A stretch of 30,577 nucleotides of DNA from a virus. Location: IMG/VR virus record IMGVR_UViG_3300037042_001926, positions 1 to 30,577 of that record. The stretch is one strand, 5' to 3'. The notes under the pieces are model-generated. The model had not been told where the DNA came from and made no database searches. It worked only from the letters and a program-made list of their open reading frames with translations. Both the position numbers and the translations under genes were made by a program. Below are positions 1 through 30,577 of this stretch, piece by piece; positions within the stretch are counted from its first letter, which is position 1, and the number at the start of each line of letters is the position of its first letter.

Positions 1-290
1 GCAGGTGCTGGAGCAGGCGCTGGAGCAGGTGCAGGCGCTGGAGCAGGTGCAGGCGCTGGAGCAGGTGCAGGCGCTGGAGCAGGTGCAGGCGCTGGAGCAG
101 GTGCAGGTGCAGGTGCAGGTGCAGGTGCTGGAGCAGGCGCTGGAGCAGGTGCTGGAGCAGGAGTCGGTGCAGGCGCTGGAGCAGGAGTCGGAGCAGGTGC
201 TGGAGCAGGAGTCGGAGCAGGTGCTGGAGCAGGAGTCGGAGCAGGTGCTGGAGCAGGTGCAGGTGCAGGTGCAGGTGCTGGAACGGGAAC
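1..290. repeat. Degenerate 6/12-bp repeat coding for an alternating (Ala/Thr/Val)-Pro rod
   Basis: In the minus frame nearly every second codon is proline (CCT or CCA), alternating with Ala (GCA, GCT, GCG) and sometimes Thr or Val. The run covers about 95 residues, includes some 47 X-Pro pairs, and reaches the window edge, so its full length is unknown. Alternating X-Pro rods form stiff extended spacers; the periplasm-spanning Pro-rich region of TonB is the familiar case. That comparison is inference only. Confidence 0.93.
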
Positions 291-3158
291 GTCAGGGAAA
301 GGCCAGCCGGGCTTTACAGTGGTTGGCGCTGGGGCAGGAGTTGGCGCTTGGCTGGTATCTACGTCGGTGAAGGGCCAAGTGGCTCCAGTCACCGGAGCAG
401 GTGCTGGCGCAGTGGTGGAGCCGTCGCCAGTAATGTCTACCGGCGTGACAGTATTGTCGGAAAGGGTAACTGGAGTCAGCGGCTTGAGTGTTCCAGTAGT
501 TCCATCATTAACTATATAGGTGCCATCAGGTCCTAAAGTACGGGTATCAGAACCTGTAATAGTTGGGGGTTGGTCAAACCTTCTAGCTAACTCTTCTCTT
601 TCGTTGTCATTTAAATCCCCAGACCTTGTCATAAGGTCTACAAAAGTCATTGCGGGGTTTAGCTTGGCAAGCCATTGGAATGCTTTACCGGCAACACTTG
701 AGAGGTCCAATCCTGCGGCAGCAGCCTTTGCGGCTGGTGAAACATCTTTAAGAACCTCAGGGTTCAAGGCCGCCATCTCTGCGGCAGAAATTACACTTTT
801 TGGATCGCGACTTATCCAGTTTGCCGCATTGCCAAAAAAGTTATCCCCTCTGATTGCGTCAATTGCACGCATGAAAGCGGCAGCACCTTCTTTTCCAAGC
901 TTTGGTATCTGCTGGCTAAGTTTCTGCACCTCTGTGGCATCTGCCGCGTTGATGGGAACAATTTCCCCGGTTTCGGCAATAATTCTTACCGGCAAATCGC
1001 GCCAAGTTCCATCGGCCAATATTTGGCGCAAGGAAGCATTACCTGTCAGCGGGTCAAAATTTACTGTGCCAACTCTAGGCGGATTTTTTCCCGGTGCTCC
1101 GCCCGTGTAGTCTTCCCCGGCGGCAAGCTCAGTGGATTCGTCAACAATATTGATTCCAAGGCTATCAAGGTTCAACCCAGCAAGGGTATTGTTTGTGTCC
1201 TGCGAAGCGCCAGTAAGTTTGAATGGTGTAGTTTCGGTAGTGTCTGTTGTTGTGTCCGCAGTCTGAACTTTGTTTGGATCAGCAATGATGTCCTTGAACT
1301 TGGTCTTCAAGTCATTTCCAATGCCCTTTACCGTTTCACTGATTCCAAGAGCATTGTCGATGTAACCAGTAATTGCCTGACGACCCAACTGCAAGGCAGT
1401 GTTAAGGGCAGCCTGAGTTGGGTTCTGACCGAGCAGGCTCTGCTGCATTGCCGTGGTGGCAATTTGCTTGGCCGATGCAGGCAGTTGGTCCCAGCCGGGT
1501 ATTTGAGAGCCAAGTGAGGTTGCCGCATAACCTGAAGCTGCGGCAGTCAGTGCAGACAGTGGGTTCTGGCCGGTTGCAACTGCAATCGTGGCGTTGGTGA
1601 CGCCTCTTGTGAGTGCATCCCTTGCGCTTTGGCTCAAGGTATTAGCCGGAATATTGTCAACCACTCCAGAGATTGCCCTGCTTAGCTGAGTTCCAGCAAG
1701 ATTGAAACCGTAGCTCAATGCGGCGCTCTTTAGCGCGGCAGCAACGTCTCCGCCATTTTGAGCGGTTGTCAATGCAACTTGGCCGAGGGCGGCAGCTATT
1801 TCTGGCGTCATGGCTAGGCCAGTGGCAGCGCTCATAGTGCTGCCAATTGCAAGGAATGGGTTCGAGACCCAAGCGCCTAGCGTCGATGGAACAGAGAGGA
1901 CCATGGAGGTGGTCCCCGAAGGGATGAAGGCACCTGCCGTAGATTCTGCACCACCTAGGCTAAAAAGCTCGGTGATGTCTGGTATGCCCATCGCCATCAA
2001 GGCCAGAGCAATAACAGGCAAAGCCTGTTGAATTCCATGCTCCCTATCTTTTACCGCAGTAATGATGGGCTTGCTGTCAGCGCCTAAATTTTTGTCCAAG
2101 TAGATGTATTGACTTTGTCCGTTGTCAAAGTAATAGCCTTTGAGTGCGCCATTAACAGTTCTTGGAGTGCCGTCTCGATTCTCACCAACTTGAATCTGCT
2201 CGTAGTAAGGAAGAAGATCAGTCCCTAACCATGACTTAGCATTTGCAGCCCAATCTGGAATTGTGTCGTTGGCAGTTCTCGCGGCAATGTCTGTAGCTAC
2301 AGGAACGACCCATGTGTATGTAGGCCATTGGCCGTTTTTACCAGTAGTGCCTGTTTGTATTTGCACTGCACCGGGTGTATTGGCAGTTATCGGGACTTGA
2401 TAACTAATAATATCCTCGCCACCTCTGGTCGTGCCAGTAACCACCGCAACTGCGCCGGGAGTGTCTTTTGTAGCAGAGTACCCAGTGACGTTTCCTTGCG
2501 CGTCTCGGATTTCTGAACCCATCAACGATGTAGTGATGGGAACTGGAGCAGGCGCTGGGGCAGGAGCAACTGGAGTCGGTGCCGGGGCAACTGGGGCAAC
2601 TGGGGCAACTGGGGCAACTGGGGCAACTGGGGCAACTGGGGCAACTGGGGCAACCGGGGCAACCGGGGCAACTGGGGCAACTGGGGCAACTGGGGCAACT
2701 GGGGCAACTGGGGCAACTGGGGCAACTGGGGCAACTGGGGCAACTGGGGCAACTGGGGCAACTGGGGCAACTGGGGCAACTGGGGCAACTGGAGCAACTG
2801 GAGCAACTGGGGCAACTGGGGTAGGAGCCAAAGCAGGCGCAACAGAAGTGTCTGTTGTTACGGGGGCCACGGCCTCCAACAATGTACTCACAGGAACAGG
2901 AGCAGGTGCCGCTGGTGTTGGCGCTGGAGCCAAATAACTGGAAACATCAGTCTGGAAATTTGCCAATGCGCCCTTGGCAATATCAGCGTCAGAGTAGCCT
3001 TGAGCGCGAGATGCAGCAATGGCGCTTTGAATTTGGTCAGCCGTGTACGTCACCGGAACGGGGGCCGCAGGCACAACAGCCTGCTGCAATGGGCTCAAAG
3101 GCGCACTAGGCTGCACAGGCTCATCGCCATAAAGTTCTTCAAGGTCAGTTACTCTCAT
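1..3158 (-). CDS. Giant proline-rich putative virion/ejection protein, C-terminus cut by window edge
   Basis: Reading the minus strand from the ATG at 3158, I find no in-frame stop down to base 1, giving at least 1,052 codons. The ATG overlaps the stop of the preceding 77-residue gene as ATGA. Visible parts in order: a short helical segment (about residues 38-65, containing [20 protein letters not shown]); a proline-rich stretch with 26 VAP units (about 115-192); a beta-rich region (about 210-373); hydrophobic, Ala/Gly-rich helices (about 375-480, including [15 protein letters not shown]); a long soluble helical region; and an alternating Ala-Pro rod from about residue 957 to the edge. Hydrophobic Ala/Gly-rich segments in a very large late protein are typical of internal or ejection proteins of short-tailed phages, so I infer a role in DNA delivery or the tail. 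I recognise no catalytic motif. Existence is near certain; function is uncertain. Confidence 0.85.
2584..2817. repeat. 26 tandem 9-bp units, coding for (VAP)n
   Basis: The plus-strand unit is ggggcaact, repeated 26 times. The few single-base variants (ggggcaacc twice, ggagcaact twice) are all synonymous for the minus-strand reading, which gives Val-Ala-Pro each time. The period is a multiple of three, so gain or loss of units by replication slippage keeps the gene in frame. The encoded segment should be an extended, rigid linker near residues 115-192 of the giant protein. Confidence 0.97.
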
Positions 3159-3388
3159 CGTCTCATGCTCATTGAGTTGGTGAAGGCAAAGGCCCAATCC
3201 TGCCAGTTCTCAAAGAGACGGGAGTCTGGTACGCCTGAACTGCCAAATAAACCTATTCCGCTCAGGCCGTCAACCCACTCGCGCCAACGAGTCTCTTCCA
3301 CCGTGCCAAGCTGCTGGGCACCGAAAAGCTCATTGGTCAATGCGCACCAATAATCCCACTCCATGTTTCGGGGATCATAGGTCGTCAT
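3155..3388 (-). CDS. Small hypothetical phage protein (77 aa)
   Basis: A 77-residue acidic, Trp-rich protein ([20 protein letters not shown] at the start). It begins at an ATG that overlaps the stop of the nozzle-like gene as ATGA, behind a good Shine-Dalgarno (AGGAAACC then ATG). Its own stop overlaps the start of the giant proline-rich gene, also as ATGA, so three genes look translationally coupled. No signal peptide, membrane segment or known motif is visible. Its position between the nozzle-like protein and the giant protein suggests a tail-assembly or minor virion role, but I do not recognise the family. Confidence 0.8.
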
Positions 3389-20392: not shown

Positions 20393-21307
20393 TTAAACGC
20401 CTGCTGTACCGTACATAGCACGGGGATCAGTCCAGCCCACTTGATAACGCTCGGTGGCCTTGTAGCGCATCGAATCGGTCTCAAAGTCGCCTTCCATGGT
20501 CTTCTCCAGTTCACGGCGCATCAAGAGCTTCATGCCCTCGGGAGCGTCGGTCTGGACCCACCATGCGTTAGCGCTGGTCAGACGGCTGATAACAGCGGCA
20601 CCTTCGTCCAGCAAGCCGATAGACTTGACGGGGTTGATGTCGTTGTTTGCAGTGCCTGCACGCAGAACAGACTTCAGCAGAACCTCGGCTTGGAAAATAT
20701 TGCCGGGGGCGACCACCAGTTGGCGGGGCACCAGACGAATCTTCTTGCCGTTGTTGTCCACAGCTTGGCGAATCTGAATCAGCATCTGCTCGAGAGATGT
20801 CTGCGACAGGTTTGCCGAAGTGGACAGTTGGTTGCTGAAAGTACCGTTCACGATGGGGTGAGCAGTGCTGATCAGGGATACGCCGTCGCCGCCGACATAC
20901 GACGAGTTGAACGCACGGTTCAAAACGTTCGCAGACAGGGTTTCCTTGGTTTCAATCAGAGATTGAGCCAAGTGCTTAGCGTAGACCTGACCGATACGGA
21001 TGTGGTCACCGTCCTCAACCAAAACTTTGGTCAGAGCGAATGCCAAACCATAGACTTGGTAGACATAGCGCTGGAGGAACAGAACACCACCTTGTTGGTA
21101 CGAAACCGGAGTGCCGTCAGGCAACTGCGGAGCCGCGCCAAAACCGTACAGAACCGGCTCTTCGTGGTAGTTACGGGGGATACCATTTTCCTCGCGGAAA
21201 ACGCGCGACCACTCGTCTTTACGTTGGTCATAGACTCCATCGAAGCATTCGTTGAGGATAGGTTCAACAATACTACGGAAGTCCGTACTTCTCATTGGTG
21301 CAGCCAT
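20393..21307 (-). CDS. Major capsid protein (Mu gpT-like, HK97 fold)
   Basis: A 304-residue protein with helical N-terminus (FRSIVEPILNECFDGVYDQR), a P-domain-like part (QVYGLAFALTKVLVEDGDHI, KHLAQSLIETKETLSANVLN) and SLISTAHP, a motif typical of the Mu-type major head family. It ends RYQVGWTDPRAMYGTAGV. Its size fits an HK97-fold capsid subunit. The position after the scaffold-like and decoration-like genes, with an excellent GGAG eight bases before the ATG and a hairpin after the stop, fits the most abundantly made virion protein. The long antisense frame is a shadow. Confidence 0.9.
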   Translation of the reverse strand: MAAPMRSTDFRSIVEPILNECFDGVYDQRKDEWSRVFREENGIPRNYHEEPVLYGFGAAPQLPDGTPVSYQQGGVLFLQRYVYQVYGLAFALTKVLVEDGDHIRIGQVYAKHLAQSLIETKETLSANVLNRAFNSSYVGGDGVSLISTAHPIVNGTFSNQLSTSANLSQTSLEQMLIQIRQAVDNNGKKIRLVPRQLVVAPGNIFQAEVLLKSVLRAGTANNDINPVKSIGLLDEGAAVISRLTSANAWWVQTDAPEGMKLLMRRELEKTMEGDFETDSMRYKATERYQVGWTDPRAMYGTAGV

Positions 21308-22507: not shown

Positions 22508-23437
22508 TTAACTCCTATTCATGCGGTCATATTCTGCATACTTGCGGATCATCTTTTCACGCTCTGTTGGGTTGTCCCAACGTCCTGCTTCTTTGATGGC
22601 CCGCACTCGCTCTGGCGACAAACGAAATTCGTTGCCACCAGCCATCCTTGAGGATTCGCGACCAGAACTTGTAACCACGGAACGGGGTCTCCTATTTGAC
22701 GAACGACCGTCGCCCCCATTGTAATGGTGCGGCAAATACTTCGTCAATCGATTATCCAACTCTTCCCAATAGTCGGGATCGGTCGGGTCCCAGCCGTCTT
22801 TAAGCATCGACTCGTCGACCTTAATGGCGATTTGGGAGTCGGTATCCCCCCCGTTGGGGTCATACCAGTTGTTTCGGGACATCCAATCCTCGGCGTTTTT
22901 CTTCAGCCGGGGGTCAGCCGCCTTGGGAATACTAGAGGGATCAGGGGTGGAAACAACCTTTTTCTTCAGGTTATTGAGGGCCTCAACTTGGTTCCGGGCC
23001 TCGTACCAAATCTCCTGAGCGTTAGCCAAGGCAGTCCCGTCAGCCACCTCGGTGGCCTGTTTGATCTGCTCTTTGGCGTACTGAAGGCGCATTTGGGCGT
23101 CCTCAATGGCCTTGTCCACCCGGGCAACGTCGGCGCCTGCCGATCGCTTCTCAAGTGCGACCAGCCGCTCCGCCATCTGCTCATTCTGGCGCTTGAGCGA
23201 GTTGATCAGGTGGCTGGATTCATTGATTTTGGCCTTGTGGAACCGTTTTTTGAGAGTTCTTTCCTCCCGGCGGGCTGCTCGGATAGCCTCACGGTCCGGA
23301 TCGGACCCTGCTGCATCGTTTGAGCCACGGTTGTCTTCCATGTCGTCGGGAGACTCCATGTGTTCGGGCAGGGATACGGTCGCGGAGCCGTCGCTCTCCT
23401 CGTCCACCTGCATTTCAAGCTTTTCTGTTGAGTTCAT
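22508..23437 (-). CDS. Scaffold-like coiled-coil protein (309 aa)
   Basis: The N-terminus is acidic (about residues 1-50), followed by a long charged helix with coiled-coil character (about 50-160: REERTLKKRFHKAKINESSH, INSLKRQNEQMAERLVALEK). A Trp-rich segment comes next (AEDWMSRNNWYDPNGGDTDS, DGWDPTDPDYWEELDNRL) and then a basic C-terminal helix. This shape is typical of internal scaffolding proteins, where the C-terminal part contacts the capsid subunit. The gene lies upstream of the capsid gene and overlaps the GroES-like stop as ATGA. The scaffold function is inferred from architecture and position. Confidence 0.75.
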   Translation of the reverse strand: MNSTEKLEMQVDEESDGSATVSLPEHMESPDDMEDNRGSNDAAGSDPDREAIRAARREERTLKKRFHKAKINESSHLINSLKRQNEQMAERLVALEKRSAGADVARVDKAIEDAQMRLQYAKEQIKQATEVADGTALANAQEIWYEARNQVEALNNLKKKVVSTPDPSSIPKAADPRLKKNAEDWMSRNNWYDPNGGDTDSQIAIKVDESMLKDGWDPTDPDYWEELDNRLTKYLPHHYNGGDGRSSNRRPRSVVTSSGRESSRMAGGNEFRLSPERVRAIKEAGRWDNPTEREKMIRKYAEYDRMNRS

Positions 23438-23868
23438 AGGAATGCCTTCACTTTCAATGGGTCTGTGGTGACCTTGGCGATCACCTCATGGTCGTTAAAC
23501 ACGCTGAAAAGGGCTGTTTTGCCCTCTTTTGGGTCGCCGTAAGGCACTTCCCAACGGTCCCCGCCCCATTTGGGCATGCGGACGTAGTCACCAATCTCAA
23601 TCCAGTTGCCCTCGGGCCACGGTTCAAGACTGTCGCGTTTTTTGAAAGCTAGTGGACCCATCGAAATGACTTTCGCCACTTGGTTATTCCACTTTTCGGT
23701 TTCCTTGGTCTCTTCAACAAGTACGATTCCAGAAGCGGTCGTCTTTTCTGCCGTGGCACGCCACTGCACAAGAACTCGACCACCTGCTGGGATTGCACCG
23801 GGATCAACTGCTGGAAATGCTTCCTGCAACGCTGCTTCGTTCGAAGCTACCGGTTGTTCATCGCTCAT
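23434..23868 (-). CDS. GroES-like co-chaperonin (144 aa)
   Basis: The Cpn10 layout can be followed along the protein. Residues 27-36 (PAGGRVLVQW) match the first strand. Residues 37-59 form a mobile loop with the chaperonin-binding Ile48-Val49-Leu50 tripeptide in SGIVLVEE. Residues 60-75 (NNQVAKVISMGPLAF) match the GxVxxVG region. Residues 91-125 (EIGDYVRMPKWGG, ALFSVFNDHEVIAKV) match the second half. Bacterial GroES is about 97 residues; the extra length is an N-terminal extension and an inserted loop (76-90). It probably works with the host GroEL to fold the capsid subunit, as T4 gp31 does, and lies among the head genes. The partner is inferred. Confidence 0.83.
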   Translation of the reverse strand: MSDEQPVASNEAALQEAFPAVDPGAIPAGGRVLVQWRATAEKTTASGIVLVEETKETEKWNNQVAKVISMGPLAFKKRDSLEPWPEGNWIEIGDYVRMPKWGGDRWEVPYGDPKEGKTALFSVFNDHEVIAKVTTDPLKVKAFL

Positions 23869-24046
23869 CTACGTCTTCTTCCTTTAAAAGGTTGTTTAAA
23901 ATTTCCAGAGCTTTTGCAAGCCCTTGGTGCTCTCCTACCAGATATTGGTAGGCTTCGTAGCTGTTGGCATTGCCAACAGCCAACGATCCTGCGATACGTC
24001 CTTGTTCAGCTTCTATAGCACCGATAAAGTCGCTGACATACCGCAT
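23858..24046 (-). CDS. Small helical phage protein (62 aa)
   Basis: A 62-residue protein, MRYVSDFIGAIEAEQGRIAG followed by NANSYEAYQYLVGEHQGLAK and an acidic tail (LLKEEDVDER). It is almost entirely helical. The YxxYQxLVGEHQGLxxAL pattern is common in small proteins near the portal gene in short-tailed phages. Its ATG overlaps the previous stop (TAATG) and its 3' end overlaps the GroES-like gene by 11 bases. Function is unknown. Confidence 0.78.
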   Translation of the reverse strand: MRYVSDFIGAIEAEQGRIAGSLAVGNANSYEAYQYLVGEHQGLAKALEILNNLLKEEDVDER

Positions 24047-24216
24047 TATTTTTTCCTCAGAGCGGCCAGACCGCTTTGTTTCTTCTGAGAACCGCTGGAT
24101 TTGGGCTGAGATTTACCGCCGCTCTCCAACTTCGTGCCATCTAGGCTTTGGCCCATGGCAATTCGCTTGTGCATGGGCACGTCAGAGCCCGATTGATTTA
24201 CTTCACGTTCCGCCAT
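24046..24216 (-). CDS. Very small basic phage protein (56 aa)
   Basis: I translated this short frame by hand: it starts MAEREVNQSGSDVPMHKRIA, continues MGQSLDGTKLESGGK, and ends SGLAALRKK. A strong AGGAGG lies five bases before the ATG at 24216. The start is inside the last 14 bases of the portal gene, and the stop overlaps the next gene as TAATG. The VPMHKRIAMGQ segment looks conserved in phage genes next to portals. The C-terminal half is Ser/Lys-rich and probably disordered. A minor head protein is a guess. Confidence 0.8.
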   Translation of the reverse strand: MAEREVNQSGSDVPMHKRIAMGQSLDGTKLESGGKSQPKSSGSQKKQSGLAALRKK

Positions 24217-26713
24217 ATTGGCCTCCTAGGGTTTGCTGTGCGCCTTGCAGCGCGGAAATAGCAGTTTTTTGCTGCTCACTCTGCAAAATCTGCGCGTCGT
24301 GCGAGATTTCGGCAGTTTTGATGCGCTCGTCGGTCAAGTTGTCGTTGGCATTCAACGCAATTTCAATCTGCTGAGCGCGATTTTTTTGCAAAGACTCCGA
24401 CTGCATCTTCTCGTGGGCCAAGACGTTGTCGGCTTGGTCCTTGGCCGCACGACGCTGCGTCTCGGCCATGCTGGTCTGCATGTAAACCATGTCGGTGCTG
24501 TTCATTGGCGGCTTGGGAGCGAACTGTTTCGCCATCTCGGTGATCTTTTGGATGGCCGGCAGCATCTTCTCAAACGCCTTTTGCGCGTCCAAGTTGGTGT
24601 GCTGCGACGCCAAGGCGTACAGCTTGTCAATCTGGCCGGTCAACGCGGACTGTCCGTAATCTTTGACAGGCCCCTTCATGGATTTGGTCACATAACCGTT
24701 CATTCGTTGCAAATACCACAGGGTTATGTGCTGCTTAATGTGCTCAAGCTGCTGCGGGATGCACTGCGGCGCAATGATTGGGTTGGCGCCAAGGATCGGA
24801 TTGAGACAGAAGTCCAAGTGCGACTGCAAGTGCGCCAGTTGGTCCTGATTAGCGTAGGCAAACGCCGCCCGGCCAATAGCCATGGCCGCGTTTTCCTCTG
24901 CCGCGTTCAACTCCTCGGGGTCCGTGGAGTTGGGCATCAGTTCGTTCAGGTTGGGAATCTTCATTTGGCGCATCGCACGCTCAAGAACCGCCCGCTGGTC
25001 GAAGTGCTGGGGGTACTTGTCCATCATCGCCAAGACCGCTTGGGTCTGGGCCATGCGCTGAGTCTCGGAGAAAATGTGCGGATCGCTGACAGGAATGACA
25101 TCGTCATTGCGTTTGAAGTCATCGCGACTGATTTCCAAGTCAGAAATCGACTCTCCACGGTGCATCTCGTCCAAATACCATCGGTTGATGCGGCTCAGGA
25201 CCTTCAAAACGCGCTTTTGCGAGTCATGCAGGCGGGCATGGATGGCCGAGAACACGGCGGCGCCCTGCTCGATCAATGCCTGCGTGGTTCCAACCGGCGC
25301 GTTGGAGTTAACGTCGGCGATTTTTTCCTCGGACGTGGTCACAACACCCTTGGCCGCGTCGGTCAGCCAGCCCAAAAGCTGGAACAGGACCGGGTTTGGC
25401 GGGTTGAACGGCATCGGCATAGCGATCTTGCGGATGTCGTCCACGCCCGGCGCGGCCTCCACCTCGGTCACTTGGGTCACTTCGATGCTCTGGCTCTGGC
25501 CGGACATCTTGGCGCCCTTCAACTTCAGCATGGTCGCGCTGTTGTTTATGTGAGCAGTGTCCAGCAGAGCACGCAAAGCCCCAGTAAGAGCAGCAGATAG
25601 ACCACCAATGAGGTGAGGAAAACCAATTGCATAGGCGCCTCGCCATGGGATGAATTTAAATTCGATGAGCCAGTCCAGCTTGGTCATGGTCTCGTCGCCC
25701 TCTTCCCAGTTGCGGTACAGACCCAGCACCTCGGTCGAGTTCTCGTCCACCATCAGGATGTACGGAGCGGTATCACCGTCAGTTTCGTTGTCCTCTTCGA
25801 TGTCCATGTACGCGTATATGTGGTACACGCGGCGCAGGCCGTCCTCGTTGTCCTGCCACTTGCGGCCCTCGATCTTGTTGTTGGCCTTGCCCGGCCCGGT
25901 CGTCTCGGGCTCCATGCTGGCAAAGCCCACGTCCACGTCGCGGTACAGGCCGGACTTGACCCGGCTGTCAAACTCCTGCTGGGTGATGTAGTGCACCTCG
26001 GTGACGCGCTGAGCTGTGTAGAAGTTGCCGGCGGCAAATGGGATGATCACGTTGTCGATCGGCACAAACTCGGCGCAGGGACGGCGCTTGCGCTCGTCGT
26101 ACCACATCTTGAGGTACTGCGACCCGCCCAAAGGCAACTGGGTCAGCATCTGCTCTTCCTCGTCGCGGAACTCGACGATCTGCTCAGTCAACTGCCAGTT
26201 CATCCAGTCGCGCTTGCGGTCAGCGCGGGCGACGGCCTCTTGGTCGGCCTCGCCCTTGATGTTGGTGCGCACCGGGCCGTCCGGCGGGAACATCTCCTTG
26301 ATGGCGCGGGACTCGAAGTCGATGCAGGCCTCGGCCATGATCGGGTGCACAACCTTGCTGGCCCCCTGAAACATCGCCCCGCCCGGAGCGTCGTGTCCTA
26401 GGCCGGTGCGCTTTAATCCCTCTTCGTACTGCTTGTCGCGGTCCTCGCGGGCCTGCTTGTCCTTGTCGATCAGGTCCAAGTACTTCATGCCGATGGAACT
26501 GAGGTCCCATGACTTCAGGCTGCCGGTCATGTCGCCGTAGAAGTCTTGGTCCTCAACAGGGCCGATCTTCTCTTCCATGCGGACGATGGCCGAGCCGTCG
26601 GGCTGCTCTTCAACGTCTGACATCTCCTCGGCGCCCAAGTCGAAGGACATGCCCTCGTCGTCCTCGGGACTGCTGGTGATGTCTTCTTGCGGTTGAGGGA
26701 ATTCAATTGCCAT
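24203..26713 (-). CDS. Portal protein (P22-type, 836 aa)
   Basis: An 836-residue protein whose length and layout fit the P22-type portal: acidic N-terminus, GAMFQGASKVVHPIMAEACI, PDGPVRTNIKG, FVPIDNVIIPFAAGNFYTAQ, a stem and crown region (FIPWRGAYAIGFPHLIGGLS) and a long helical Gln/Ala-rich C-terminus (about 735-836: MQTSMAETQRRAAKDQADNV). The dodecameric portal would form the DNA channel at the head vertex, working with the terminase. I use ATG 26713 because a GTG four codons earlier has no better Shine-Dalgarno. The upstream region has only a weak GAG. A 455-codon antisense frame is a GC-rich shadow. Confidence 0.9.
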   Translation of the reverse strand: MAIEFPQPQEDITSSPEDDEGMSFDLGAEEMSDVEEQPDGSAIVRMEEKIGPVEDQDFYGDMTGSLKSWDLSSIGMKYLDLIDKDKQAREDRDKQYEEGLKRTGLGHDAPGGAMFQGASKVVHPIMAEACIDFESRAIKEMFPPDGPVRTNIKGEADQEAVARADRKRDWMNWQLTEQIVEFRDEEEQMLTQLPLGGSQYLKMWYDERKRRPCAEFVPIDNVIIPFAAGNFYTAQRVTEVHYITQQEFDSRVKSGLYRDVDVGFASMEPETTGPGKANNKIEGRKWQDNEDGLRRVYHIYAYMDIEEDNETDGDTAPYILMVDENSTEVLGLYRNWEEGDETMTKLDWLIEFKFIPWRGAYAIGFPHLIGGLSAALTGALRALLDTAHINNSATMLKLKGAKMSGQSQSIEVTQVTEVEAAPGVDDIRKIAMPMPFNPPNPVLFQLLGWLTDAAKGVVTTSEEKIADVNSNAPVGTTQALIEQGAAVFSAIHARLHDSQKRVLKVLSRINRWYLDEMHRGESISDLEISRDDFKRNDDVIPVSDPHIFSETQRMAQTQAVLAMMDKYPQHFDQRAVLERAMRQMKIPNLNELMPNSTDPEELNAAEENAAMAIGRAAFAYANQDQLAHLQSHLDFCLNPILGANPIIAPQCIPQQLEHIKQHITLWYLQRMNGYVTKSMKGPVKDYGQSALTGQIDKLYALASQHTNLDAQKAFEKMLPAIQKITEMAKQFAPKPPMNSTDMVYMQTSMAETQRRAAKDQADNVLAHEKMQSESLQKNRAQQIEIALNANDNLTDERIKTAEISHDAQILQSEQQKTAISALQGAQQTLGGQYGGT

Positions 26714-26733
26714 GGTTTTTCTCACAAAGATTT

Positions 26734-26795: not shown

Positions 26796-26999
26796 ATGGA
26801 ACTGGAAGAACGCAAAGCAAAGGTCATAGACGTAGAAAATAATGGAGAATTCTTATCCGTCGAGTACATCAGAGAGGATGGGCAGCGTGTCATTGGCATG
26901 TTCAAACGCTTTGGGTGGGATGAGGCTCCGAGGGAAGTCATAGCTGAAGTCAATTTGGCTCTTCGGCAAGGTCCGATACAGACGGCGGGATTGCGCTAG
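26796..26999 (+). CDS. Lone plus-strand small acidic protein (67 aa)
   Basis: This is the only convincing gene on the plus strand. It encodes a 67-residue, probably alpha/beta protein: MELEERKAKVIDVENNGEFL, SVEYIREDGQRVIGMFKRFG, then WDEAPREVIAEVNLALRQG. A strong AAAGGAG and an AT-rich upstream region support it. It is divergent from the portal gene and its last 50 bases overlap the 3' end of the 901-residue gene tail to tail. A gene placed this way, with its own control, may be an early or accessory (moron-like) gene, for example one affecting the host. I recognise no family. Confidence 0.75.
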   Translation: MELEERKAKVIDVENNGEFLSVEYIREDGQRVIGMFKRFGWDEAPREVIAEVNLALRQGPIQTAGLR

Positions 27000-29655
27000 A
27001 TTCTTGACCGGCCAAGGAAACGCCAGACGCCAACGCGGCTGGCAAACCGGCAATGCCATATTTTTTAATGATCTCAAGCATGTTCATTAAATCTTCTCTG
27101 GTCGGCTCATTTGTTTTCTCTTGCAGTTTCCGGTAAATGTCGTACACATCTTCAGCAGGACGCTTGGCAGCTTCACTGACAGCATTCTGTTTGGACTTCG
27201 GCATCTTGGAGAAGTAGTCAAGCATCTTCTGGGTAACCGCTCCAGAGCCTTGGGGTGCAGCAAATTCACCCGAGTAGTCTATGTAATTGCCCGGAGTATG
27301 TACTCTGAGTACATCACTTCCGCCAAGCATTTCCTTGATTTTCTCTGCCTGAGACTTGTTAAATGAATCGCCCCAATTTAACACAGTGGCGCCACGGCCA
27401 GTGTCGGCAACGGCTTCGGTGCCCGGATCAAGTATTGACCCGGCATACGACATGTTCTCAGCGGGAACCTTCTTTTCCGACTTGACAAACAGGCCGGGGC
27501 CAGTTTTGTGCGGTATGGCGCCGCTGTATGGCGTGCCCAGTTGGGCCGTCATGCCACCCTCAATCGCGGAGATGGCATCCATTATTGATTGATCTTTTGG
27601 GTTCAATGAAGGCTCTTCGCCTTTGAATCTTATGGGTAGCTCAACCGTTGAGCCGTAGCCGGGCTGGGTTTCCATTGCATGCCTTCCGGGCAATGCTGGG
27701 CGCAAACCCATGCCGGGTTGGTTGAATGCCTTTTCAGAGATAAACGGTGGCTCAGCCCTTGGGCCAACATTACCAATGCCGCCCGGTGGACGGAAGGACC
27801 CGGTAAACGGCGTGGTGGGCAGCGGCTCGTAGCCAGCGGCGCCCATCAGCACATTGCGGTTCTGTTGGTCGTTGAAGGCATTGGAAAGCTTTGACGACAC
27901 ATTCTTGCGGACCGACTCAGGCGCATTGATCAGGTACTCCAAGTGCCCTGTGCCCTGCCCCGGGATGTACTCTTGGTTCTTGGTGAAGAAGCCTGTTTCA
28001 GGTAACGCGGCCTCCTCGGCAGGCATGCCCAAGCTTGTGAAACGCCTAGAGCTTTGGCGCATCCGGCCCAAGTTCTCAAGGTTACCGGCAATATCTTCCA
28101 AGTTTCTTTGGTCCGACATGGACATGTCGTACTTTGGACGCTGCCAATCGTGCGGCTTCAATGCAGCCAATTGGTCCCCGTATCCAGCCTCTTCAAGAAT
28201 TTTTCCATAGTTGCCCTGACGCAACAAGCTGGAGAAGTCGGGCGTGCCGCGAATCATTTCAGGCGTCAGCAGGCCCTTTTGCAATATCTCGCGGGCGGGC
28301 ATGCCGGTGCTGGTTTGCATTTCCATCAGGGGCATGAACCACGACCATGCCGTCTCTTGCGCCTCCGATGGGTACATGCCAGCCTTCTGAGCCGCTTGGC
28401 GCATGCGCACGTTGGTGCCGATATAGCCGGGGGACAGGCCCGGGTCGCCAGCGGCCAGTTGCAGGGCCGTGGGTGACCCGCTAAAGGCCTGCTGACTCAC
28501 CTTCAGGCCATTGGACATCCACGCGTCATTGGTCACGCGGTAGACGTCATCGGCCAAGTTGTGGAAGAACGAGTCAACCTTGGGGCCGGACAGCACGACC
28601 TTGGTCGGGTCGGGGTTGGACAGGGCACGAACGCTGTTGTTGACCCATGCTTCGAGCACGGACTCCTCGCCCTTTGTGCCGGCGACACTCTGGCCCATGA
28701 TGGCCTTGATCGACTTGGCATCGGTCGGGCGCCCGGCTGCCGTCCAGTTCTTCCAAGTGTTCAGCGAGTTGGTCAGGTTCATTTCCACAGAGGTCTGTGG
28801 AGACTGGGCGGCCAGCAGCGCGGCAAACCGTGGCGCGTCATCGACGCCGAACACGTCAATCAGGGCCTGCGTAGAGGCGCGATACCAGCCCTGCTTCTCG
28901 GCGCCAGCCTTGGTGACCGAGGCCAACTCCTTGGCCTGAGGCAGCACCTCAAGCAGACGGGTCATCTCGCGGATGCCATTGGGATTGCCCAGAATCTTGG
29001 TCAGTTCCTGAGGCGTCATGAACTTGGCCGCCTCGCCAAAGCCGGGGTGCTTCTGCGAGTAGGTCTCGAGCAGTTCCTTCTGCTCGTCGTTTAAAGCGCC
29101 CCTCTGCATGCGTTGAAGCTCGGCACTGGTGTTACCCCTGACCGGCTGCTTAGATGGCGCCAATGCCCCGGATAAGGCCGATGATGGGCCGCTTGGCTGG
29201 CTGCTACCCCAGTTTGACATCACAGCCTTCTGCGCCTCTGACATCTTGGGCTCGGCAGCGGCTACCGCCTTGGCCGCCTTGCTAGATACCATCTTGGTGC
29301 CCATGCCAACCGGCAGGCCCTTGGTAGCCATAGCCACGTCACCAGCGAATGGGGCCAAGTTCATGGCCGTATCCATCACCTCGGGCTTGACCCGGGTTGT
29401 GCCGCCAAGGCCGCCAGCCCCGGTGGTCAGCGGCTCACCGTAGGACAGCAGGTCCAAGGTCTTTGCCATGGACGGCAACTGGAACGTGTCGGCCATCATC
29501 TGCATATGCTGGGTCCGCTCGGGGCTGGATGCCGCCGCCAGCAGGTCGGCCACGGAGCCCAGCGCGGCGTTGCGCGGCGTGGCACGCATCGAGTCTTGGC
29601 GACGGCGAGGCACCGGCCCTTGGGCTTCCTTGATCATGTCTTCGATGCTTGCCAT
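26950..29655 (-). CDS. 901-aa phage protein with a DUF7178-like region
   Basis: It lies between the terminase and the portal. I start it at ATG 29655 (MASIEDMIKEAQGPVPRRRQ), which has AGGAG ten bases upstream and lies 11 bases after the terminase stop; a 66-residue longer in-frame version would run into the terminase and is unlikely. About residues 279-295 (LLAAQSPQTSVEMNLTN) and 356-384 (GPKVDSFFHNLADDVYRVTN, DAW) resemble the conserved blocks of DUF7178. The C-terminal part contains VLRVHTPGNYIDYSGEF and a hydrophobic YGIAGLPAALASG near the end. The large size suggests a virion-internal or ejected protein. The family call is tentative and the function unknown. G+C falls sharply from 5' to 3'. 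Confidence 0.75.
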   Translation of the reverse strand: MASIEDMIKEAQGPVPRRRQDSMRATPRNAALGSVADLLAAASSPERTQHMQMMADTFQLPSMAKTLDLLSYGEPLTTGAGGLGGTTRVKPEVMDTAMNLAPFAGDVAMATKGLPVGMGTKMVSSKAAKAVAAAEPKMSEAQKAVMSNWGSSQPSGPSSALSGALAPSKQPVRGNTSAELQRMQRGALNDEQKELLETYSQKHPGFGEAAKFMTPQELTKILGNPNGIREMTRLLEVLPQAKELASVTKAGAEKQGWYRASTQALIDVFGVDDAPRFAALLAAQSPQTSVEMNLTNSLNTWKNWTAAGRPTDAKSIKAIMGQSVAGTKGEESVLEAWVNNSVRALSNPDPTKVVLSGPKVDSFFHNLADDVYRVTNDAWMSNGLKVSQQAFSGSPTALQLAAGDPGLSPGYIGTNVRMRQAAQKAGMYPSEAQETAWSWFMPLMEMQTSTGMPAREILQKGLLTPEMIRGTPDFSSLLRQGNYGKILEEAGYGDQLAALKPHDWQRPKYDMSMSDQRNLEDIAGNLENLGRMRQSSRRFTSLGMPAEEAALPETGFFTKNQEYIPGQGTGHLEYLINAPESVRKNVSSKLSNAFNDQQNRNVLMGAAGYEPLPTTPFTGSFRPPGGIGNVGPRAEPPFISEKAFNQPGMGLRPALPGRHAMETQPGYGSTVELPIRFKGEEPSLNPKDQSIMDAISAIEGGMTAQLGTPYSGAIPHKTGPGLFVKSEKKVPAENMSYAGSILDPGTEAVADTGRGATVLNWGDSFNKSQAEKIKEMLGGSDVLRVHTPGNYIDYSGEFAAPQGSGAVTQKMLDYFSKMPKSKQNAVSEAAKRPAEDVYDIYRKLQEKTNEPTREDLMNMLEIIKKYGIAGLPAALASGVSLAGQESSAIPPSVSDLAEEPN

Positions 29656-29666
29656 GGCCGTGGCTC

Positions 29667-30577
29667 CTATTGGGCGTATGGGTTGAAGCGGGTACGCGTC
29701 TCGTCCGCGTACTCGTCGGGGATGTCCGCTGGGTCGATGCGGATTATCCCCGCATCCTTGAGGTAGCGCAACGCTTGGGTCAGGGCGTCGACGTAGTCGT
29801 CGTGCCGGACCTCGGGGAAGGCGCACCACTGGTTGATGGCGTCCTTGAGCCAAGACCGTGCCGTGCCCGGCGTGCGGTCGCTCTCGGGCAGGTACAGCAG
29901 GCCGCGCTCGATGATCGGCGCCACGAGGTTGGCCCTGAGCACCTTGTCGGCCCTGCCGGGGTTGTAGGCCCGCACCGGCATGCCGGCACGCTGGAGGTCT
30001 TGGATCAGGCTGATGCCCGCGCTCTTGTCCTCGATCAGCATGATGTCGGTCTTCTTGCCCGAGCCGAACTCGTCCGGGTCGCCGTACACCTCGCCGTAGT
30101 GCTCGATCACCTTGGCCCGCAGGTCAGGGTACTGGATGCGCTCAGACCACGCGTCGATCACCATCACGCTGGTGGGCCGGTCCTCGGGCTTGAACACGCC
30201 AAGCACGACGCAGGCCGTGCTGTCGTTCTGGGTCTTCTCGCTGGTGGCGCAGTCGTACGACTGGATCACCATGGTGAACATGGGCAGTGGCCGGTCCGCG
30301 TCCCACAGCCTGAACCACGACTGCTTGATGATGCCGTGGTCGCTCGGGTCCAGCAGCACCGCGTTGATCTCCTGCTCACCCAGCGCGGTGTTCTCGTACT
30401 GGAGAATCTGAGCCCGGAAGGTGGGCGCGAGGTTGTCGAGGTTGTCGTAGGTCGTGGCGCTGACGTAGCAGACGTCGTGGCCGTCGCGCTCGACGAGGTC
30501 GAAGATCAGCGGCTTGGGCCGGGGCGTCGTGGTGCACATCAGGCGCGGGTGCTTGCCCAGCCGCATGCCGAACTGAA
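29667..30577 (-). CDS. terL: Terminase large subunit, C-terminal part (partial at window edge)
   Basis: The frame stays open to the edge (codons QFG precede the first internal Met), so only the C-terminal part is here; the Walker motifs are missing. MCTTTPRPKPL is the motif III-like segment of the ATPase. The RNase H-type nuclease is visible (numbering from the internal Met): Asp105 in IQSYDCATS, Glu179-Asp180 in IMLIEDKSAG, and Asp256/257/260 in RHDDYVDALTQAL. The enzyme cuts concatemeric DNA and pumps it through the portal. The partner small subunit is outside the window. This region is about 65% G+C, higher than the rest. Confidence 0.93.
   Translation of the reverse strand, partial: QFGMRLGKHPRLMCTTTPRPKPLIFDLVERDGHDVCYVSATTYDNLDNLAPTFRAQILQYENTALGEQEINAVLLDPSDHGIIKQSWFRLWDADRPLPMFTMVIQSYDCATSEKTQNDSTACVVLGVFKPEDRPTSVMVIDAWSERIQYPDLRAKVIEHYGEVYGDPDEFGSGKKTDIMLIEDKSAGISLIQDLQRAGMPVRAYNPGRADKVLRANLVAPIIERGLLYLPESDRTPGTARSWLKDAINQWCAFPEVRHDDYVDALTQALRYLKDAGIIRIDPADIPDEYADETRTRFNPYAQ

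Follow-up and report, generated by a model that had tools for sequence, protein, structure and literature searches.

A divergent GroES-family protein encoded in a phage head operon is a probable lid for host GroEL in head-protein folding

Results

A phage reading frame encodes a divergent member of the Cpn10 family

The window analyzed here, a 30,577-base IMG/VR virus record taken at its full length, carries a GroES-like reading frame in the midst of genes for the phage head. This raises the question of whether the product is a genuine co-chaperonin and, if so, what the phage uses it for. A preliminary description had called it a virus-encoded GroES-like co-chaperonin in the head operon. The coordinates that it gave are exact, with the frame running from 23868 to 23434; the strand, which it left out, is minus.

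23434..23868, minus strand: Cpn10/GroES-like co-chaperonin gene, 144 aa (Pfam PF00166, PHROG 3188, AlphaFold2 model)

The 144-residue protein matched the Pfam Cpn10 family (PF00166) over residues 27–132 with an E-value of 1e-7 and 32.3 bits, the curated cut-off being 21.1 bits, and matched PHROG 3188, "co-chaperonin GroES," with an E-value of 9e-9. When the single sequence was searched against the PDB, the result was weak (best E-value 0.069). A profile of 118 relatives compared with PDB sequences found Thermus Cpn10 at an E-value of 2e-8, and all 15 sequences with E-values of 0.0025 or lower belonged to the Cpn10 family. Individually, 117 of the 118 diverse alignment members matched Cpn10 with an E-value of 0.001 or better. 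The threshold for a cellular GroES equivalog was missed by a wide margin (26.3 bits versus 136 for the best NCBIfam model, PRK00364), and we conclude from these scores that the protein is not a GroES of the cellular type. Compared with nine relatives, the gene showed a pN/pS of 0.14–0.28, revealing purifying selection and hence a reading frame that is a gene under constraint. The protein is 48% longer than the 97-residue E. coli GroES, in agreement with the earlier estimate of about 50%. Together, these data identify the frame as a real, slightly enlarged, and divergent GroES relative.

The predicted structure contains a Cpn10 barrel and a mobile loop

We built an AlphaFold2 monomer model from the 118-sequence alignment, with a mean pLDDT of 80.7 and a pTM of 0.76. 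Model confidence was high for residues 11–30 (pLDDT of ~90) and low for residues 1–6 and for the loop near residues 41–60. A Foldseek search of the PDB supported the Cpn10 fold (E-value 6.5e-6, probability 1.00), and every match with an E-value below 0.05 was either a Cpn10-family protein or T4 gp31. Alignment with VIA-align gave the highest similarity to Mycobacterium tuberculosis Cpn10 (1p3h_B; Z 9.8, rmsd 3.6, 96 residues), followed by E. coli GroES in 1aon (Z 8.4) and by gp31 in its GroEL-bound (Z 7.9) and free (Z 6.8) forms. The aligned ranges on the model extended from residues 21/25 to 132/135 for the Cpn10 chains, and the identity to solved Cpn10 proteins was only ~14–28%. Among viral structure models, a "GroES chaperonin family" protein ranked first, followed by named entries that were nearly all co-chaperonins.

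Oxidoreductase-like barrels were also recovered by VIA-align, with Z scores of at most 6.3, all ranking under the Cpn10 chains. Chance resemblance to Cpn10 was ruled out by the Pfam, profile-to-PDB, and Foldseek matches.

The preliminary description had proposed structure prediction as a check on the Cpn10 barrel and the mobile loop. Both are found in the AlphaFold2 model, and the protein is accordingly predicted to adopt the Cpn10 β-barrel fold. Its Cpn10/GroES identity is thus borne out by Pfam, PHROG, and the predicted structure.

The extra length lies at both ends and in the loops

The additional residues relative to E. coli GroES are distributed over several parts of the protein.

23794..23868, minus strand: N-terminal extension, residues 1–25, not in E. 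coli GroES (alignment and conservation)
23473..23793, minus strand: Cpn10 barrel, residues 26–132 (Pfam match and VIA-align ranges)
23683..23757, minus strand: mobile loop, residues 38–62, predicted flexible and 4–5 residues longer than in GroES
23719..23727, minus strand: IVL tripeptide, residues 48–50 (ATC GTA CTT), read from the sequence
23590..23658, minus strand: roof-loop region G71–G93 with the motif GxLAFKxRDxxxPWPEGxW, longer than in GroES
23437..23472, minus strand: C-terminal tail, residues 133–144 (VTTDPLKVKAFL), mostly past the end of GroES (alignment)

The N-terminal extension adds ~23 residues, with a predicted helix at residues 7–17 and a conserved AFPxVDPGA motif. About eight further residues lie ahead of the last strand, and the C-terminal tail adds about nine, including an invariant Pro-137. 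In the roof region, 21 residues separate the two glycines compared with 17 in GroES, a gain of four; Trp-89 and Gly-87 are invariant in all 247 distinct relatives.

The mobile loop comprises 25–27 residues in 247 of 247 distinct relatives, whereas GroES has 22 by the same count, and its pLDDT falls to 64 in block 41–50 and to 50 in block 51–60. As reported earlier, it contains the IVL tripeptide, here within ASGIVLVEE, at a position that we take to be that of the GroEL-contact motif of GroES. Scored by alignment-column counts over the 247 relatives, Gly-47 is conserved in 243 and is followed in nearly all by a hydrophobic tripeptide (IIL, IVL, IML, IVI, or similar; IAL in seven), the adjacent loop residues being variable. 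Conservation of a GIVL-type motif within a loop that is predicted to be disordered argues that GroEL binding has been retained.

The gene is strictly linked to portal, scaffold-like, and capsid genes

The reading frame is surrounded by the following features of the head operon.

24203..26725, minus strand: portal protein gene (PHROG 1216 portal, E-value 1.5e-18), upstream
23858..24046, minus strand: 62-aa ORF, overlapping the co-chaperonin gene at its start
23434..23437, minus strand: four-base ATGA overlap between the co-chaperonin gene (stop) and the scaffold-like gene (start), read from the sequence
22508..23437, minus strand: scaffold-like gene, 309 aa, highly charged, directly after the co-chaperonin gene
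20393..21307, minus strand: major capsid protein gene, 304 aa (~33 kDa), Mu gpT-like family, candidate client

The capsid gene matched the Pfam families Phage_capsid_4 (E-value 2e-11) and Mu-like_gpT (E-value 7e-7), and a scaffold role for the 309-residue protein is suggested by its position and composition. The four-base overlap proposed previously can be read directly from the DNA: the TGA stop of the co-chaperonin gene (23436–23434) shares the tetranucleotide ATGA with the ATG (23437–23435) of ORF 23437–22508. The overlap is retained in 68 of the 80 closest relatives and likely couples translation of the two genes.

Among loci recruited by the co-chaperonin, a portal homologue lay upstream on the same strand in all 232 that could be tested, the scaffold-like gene was directly next in 290 of 291, and the capsid gene lay downstream in 180 of 180 testable cases. 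Conversely, recruitment by the capsid protein recovered a Cpn10 gene in 57 of 57 loci with sufficient upstream sequence. These loci are mutually related, so that the counts do not represent independent events, and they include proteins that are only 26–31% identical. Placement in the head operon, as first described, is therefore borne out by the portal, scaffold-like, and capsid neighbors, and the strict linkage in the capsid-recruited loci makes the co-chaperonin a good marker of this phage group. In MW202601, which encodes a distant capsid relative (~30% identical over 72% of the query), no GroES is annotated between portal and capsid, indicating that a co-chaperonin is not a requirement of the capsid fold itself.

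Small ORFs are annotated at the place matching that of the 62-residue ORF in RW, HTVC023P, and DSL-LC04.

Relatives are widespread and already named in cultured phages

At least 598 viral-contig stretches encode candidate relatives of the window protein, and scans with the relatives from DSL-LC04 and Caulobacter phage RW returned 597 and 524 stretches, respectively. In GenBank, homologues annotated as co-chaperonin GroES are found in Caulobacter phages RW and KcrB and Pelagibacter phages HTVC023P and HTVC027P; further annotated homologues occur in DSL-LC04, Roseobacter phages CRP-901 and CRP-902, Planktothrix phages, and Alcaligenes phage QDWS535. For HTVC023P-type Podoviridae, 13 core genes have been listed, and GroES is one of them (PMC9599517). 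The novelty implied by the title of the preliminary description thus does not hold, as named homologues were already present in cultured podoviruses, and the window gene adds a divergent example to a kind that was already known. Our literature search found no paper naming both a Caulobacter phage and a co-chaperonin.

The closest of the named relatives compared, the RW GroES (QDH50451.1) and the chaperonin 10 of MW202545, are 54–55% identical to the window protein and of a like length class. They share its neighbors: portal, small ORFs, scaffold-like gene, two genes, and capsid. In RW, the co-chaperonin gene ends without overlapping its successor; a small gap in the loop is a further difference. 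The GroES proteins of HTVC023P, HTVC027P, and DSL-LC04 (146–150 aa) have the matching operon place, the loop motif, and invariant Trp-89, Gly-103, Asp-126, and Pro-137, but are only ~26–31% identical, with a roof region three residues shorter and a different N-terminal extension. Homology, the place between portal and scaffold-like genes, and a downstream capsid gene were found in RW, HTVC023P, and DSL-LC04 alike, placing them in one clade with the window protein.

Matches in bacterial assemblies amounted to eight MAG contigs, assigned to Gammaproteobacteria, Chthonomonas, Opitutae, Thiobacillus, Cellvibrio, Rubrivivax, and others. These have phage head neighbors and, where testable, the phage gene order, and look like phage contigs binned into MAGs.

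The phages encode a probable lid, with no GroEL gene found

A search for Cpn60/GroEL gave no match in 16 phage records, 15 of them 51–62 kb long, while matches were obtained in 14 of 14 control genomes; as the window is a 30.6-kb fragment, the absence rests on these longer relatives. If the protein works as a co-chaperonin, it must therefore use the GroEL of the host. Larger marine phages also encode chaperonin parts (Marine et al. 2017, as described in PMC9611531), but theirs are GroEL/GroES pairs, and these phages tend to exceed 70 kb; the clade of the window encodes the lid only.

Discussion

The best explanation of our data is that the gene encodes a Cpn10/GroES-family co-chaperonin that is expressed from the head operon and acts as a lid for host GroEL, favoring head-protein folding, a reading that we hold with considerable confidence. 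Seven copies would assemble into a ring that takes over from GroES, its mobile loops docking on the GroEL of the host. With its N-terminal helix, C-terminal tail, aromatic roof motif, and lengthened loop, this altered lid may then help head proteins to fold during their bulk synthesis; the client may be a single such protein or several, the major capsid protein being the most likely. Production of the lid together with the head genes would be the likely mechanism by which host GroEL comes to fold a head protein. The operon position fits any head protein as the client. The proposal that the protein serves capsid folding is well supported by a linkage to head genes (portal, scaffold-like, and capsid) that is almost without exception; the preliminary description was thus right about the identity of the gene and probably right about its role. 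The gene probably ties head assembly in an abundant group of aquatic phages to host GroEL.

That description had also drawn a parallel to T4 gp31, which stands for the mode of action but not for the reason why gp31 is needed. T4 gp31 (1g31, 2cgt) and RB49 CocO share the Cpn10 fold and a mobile loop longer than that of GroES, as does the window protein by the count given above. In gp31, this loop has 22 residues versus 16 in GroES by the definition of PMC6318259, and roof loops are lacking (PMC6318259). The missing roof loop and wide dome opening of the gp31 type are not seen in the primary structure of the window protein, where the stretch between Gly-71 and Gly-93 exceeds that of GroES, and the two proteins share only 15% identity over their structural alignment. 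Bacterial GroES and mitochondrial Hsp10 have the Cpn10 barrel, the GIVL-type loop motif, and the roof region in common with the window protein, which adds the N-terminal helix, the longer loop and roof, and the C-terminal tail. T4 gp31 serves head folding through host GroEL; for the window protein, it is the linkage to head genes that is known.

In T4, the usual rationale is that the ~56-kDa capsid protein is too large for the ordinary chamber. This argument does not carry over to the window, because its capsid protein has only 304 residues; at ~33 kDa, it should fit the ordinary GroEL-GroES chamber, and size would not account for the private lid. The reason for such a lid may lie in its dedicated roof, helix, and tail. 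We tentatively consider that these three elements form a specialized GroEL roof, dedicated to the capsid throughout the clade, that recognizes one small head protein and answers a need other than chamber size, unlike in T4, although we regard this extension as rather doubtful. Given the small capsid protein, Caulobacter phage RW and other cultured relatives may help to explain what makes a phage retain a private lid where chamber size is not at issue.

The same small capsid protein would also suit a general GroES substitute that sustains GroEL during infection, under stress or host shut-off, for many clients other than head proteins. T4 gp31 and RB49 CocO can indeed replace GroES on host GroEL for all essential folding in E. 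coli (PMC3012670). We nevertheless think such a role unlikely, since the gene always lies between the portal and the scaffold-like and capsid genes and not among early or metabolic genes. That position, with the coupling to the scaffold-like gene, could also be read as the mark of a Cpn10 barrel that has lost its function with GroEL and become part of the virion or prohead, for instance a portal ring or a partner of the scaffold; head proteins might then be bound by the additions at the two termini. A structural role would have no need of a GroEL-contact tripeptide conserved in a loop predicted to be disordered, which makes this reading quite improbable.

GroES genes are nearly universal in bacteria, so that the gene might instead have been captured recently from a host as an auxiliary gene without a fixed role. 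We give this very little credence: the relatives form a large virus clade with one fixed place for the gene, the few bacterial-assembly matches carry phage gene order where this can be tested, and the identity to solved Cpn10 proteins is as low as stated above. A lid for host GroEL that favors head-protein folding accommodates the fixed place, the conserved contact motif, and the lack of a GroEL gene in the phage records searched.

Other features of the window

Between the terminase and portal genes lies a large ORF (26950–29853, minus strand) with a DUF7178 match (E-value 8e-8). With the TTG listed as its start, the ORF would overlap the terminase gene, and the true start is therefore probably internal; the gene at this place in DSL-LC04 is annotated as PcfJ-like. 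At the other end, ORF 3–3197 (minus strand, at least 1065 aa) leaves the window. It contains an APVAPV repeat, with 26 copies of a 9-base unit at 2584–2821, and a long AP-rich tail at 1–278, and may encode a protein of the virion or one associated with the tail, equipped with a proline-rich linker. Antisense to this long ORF, ARAGORN predicted a tRNA-Met (cat) at 1803–1879 on the plus strand, which may be spurious or may be a genuine antisense tRNA.
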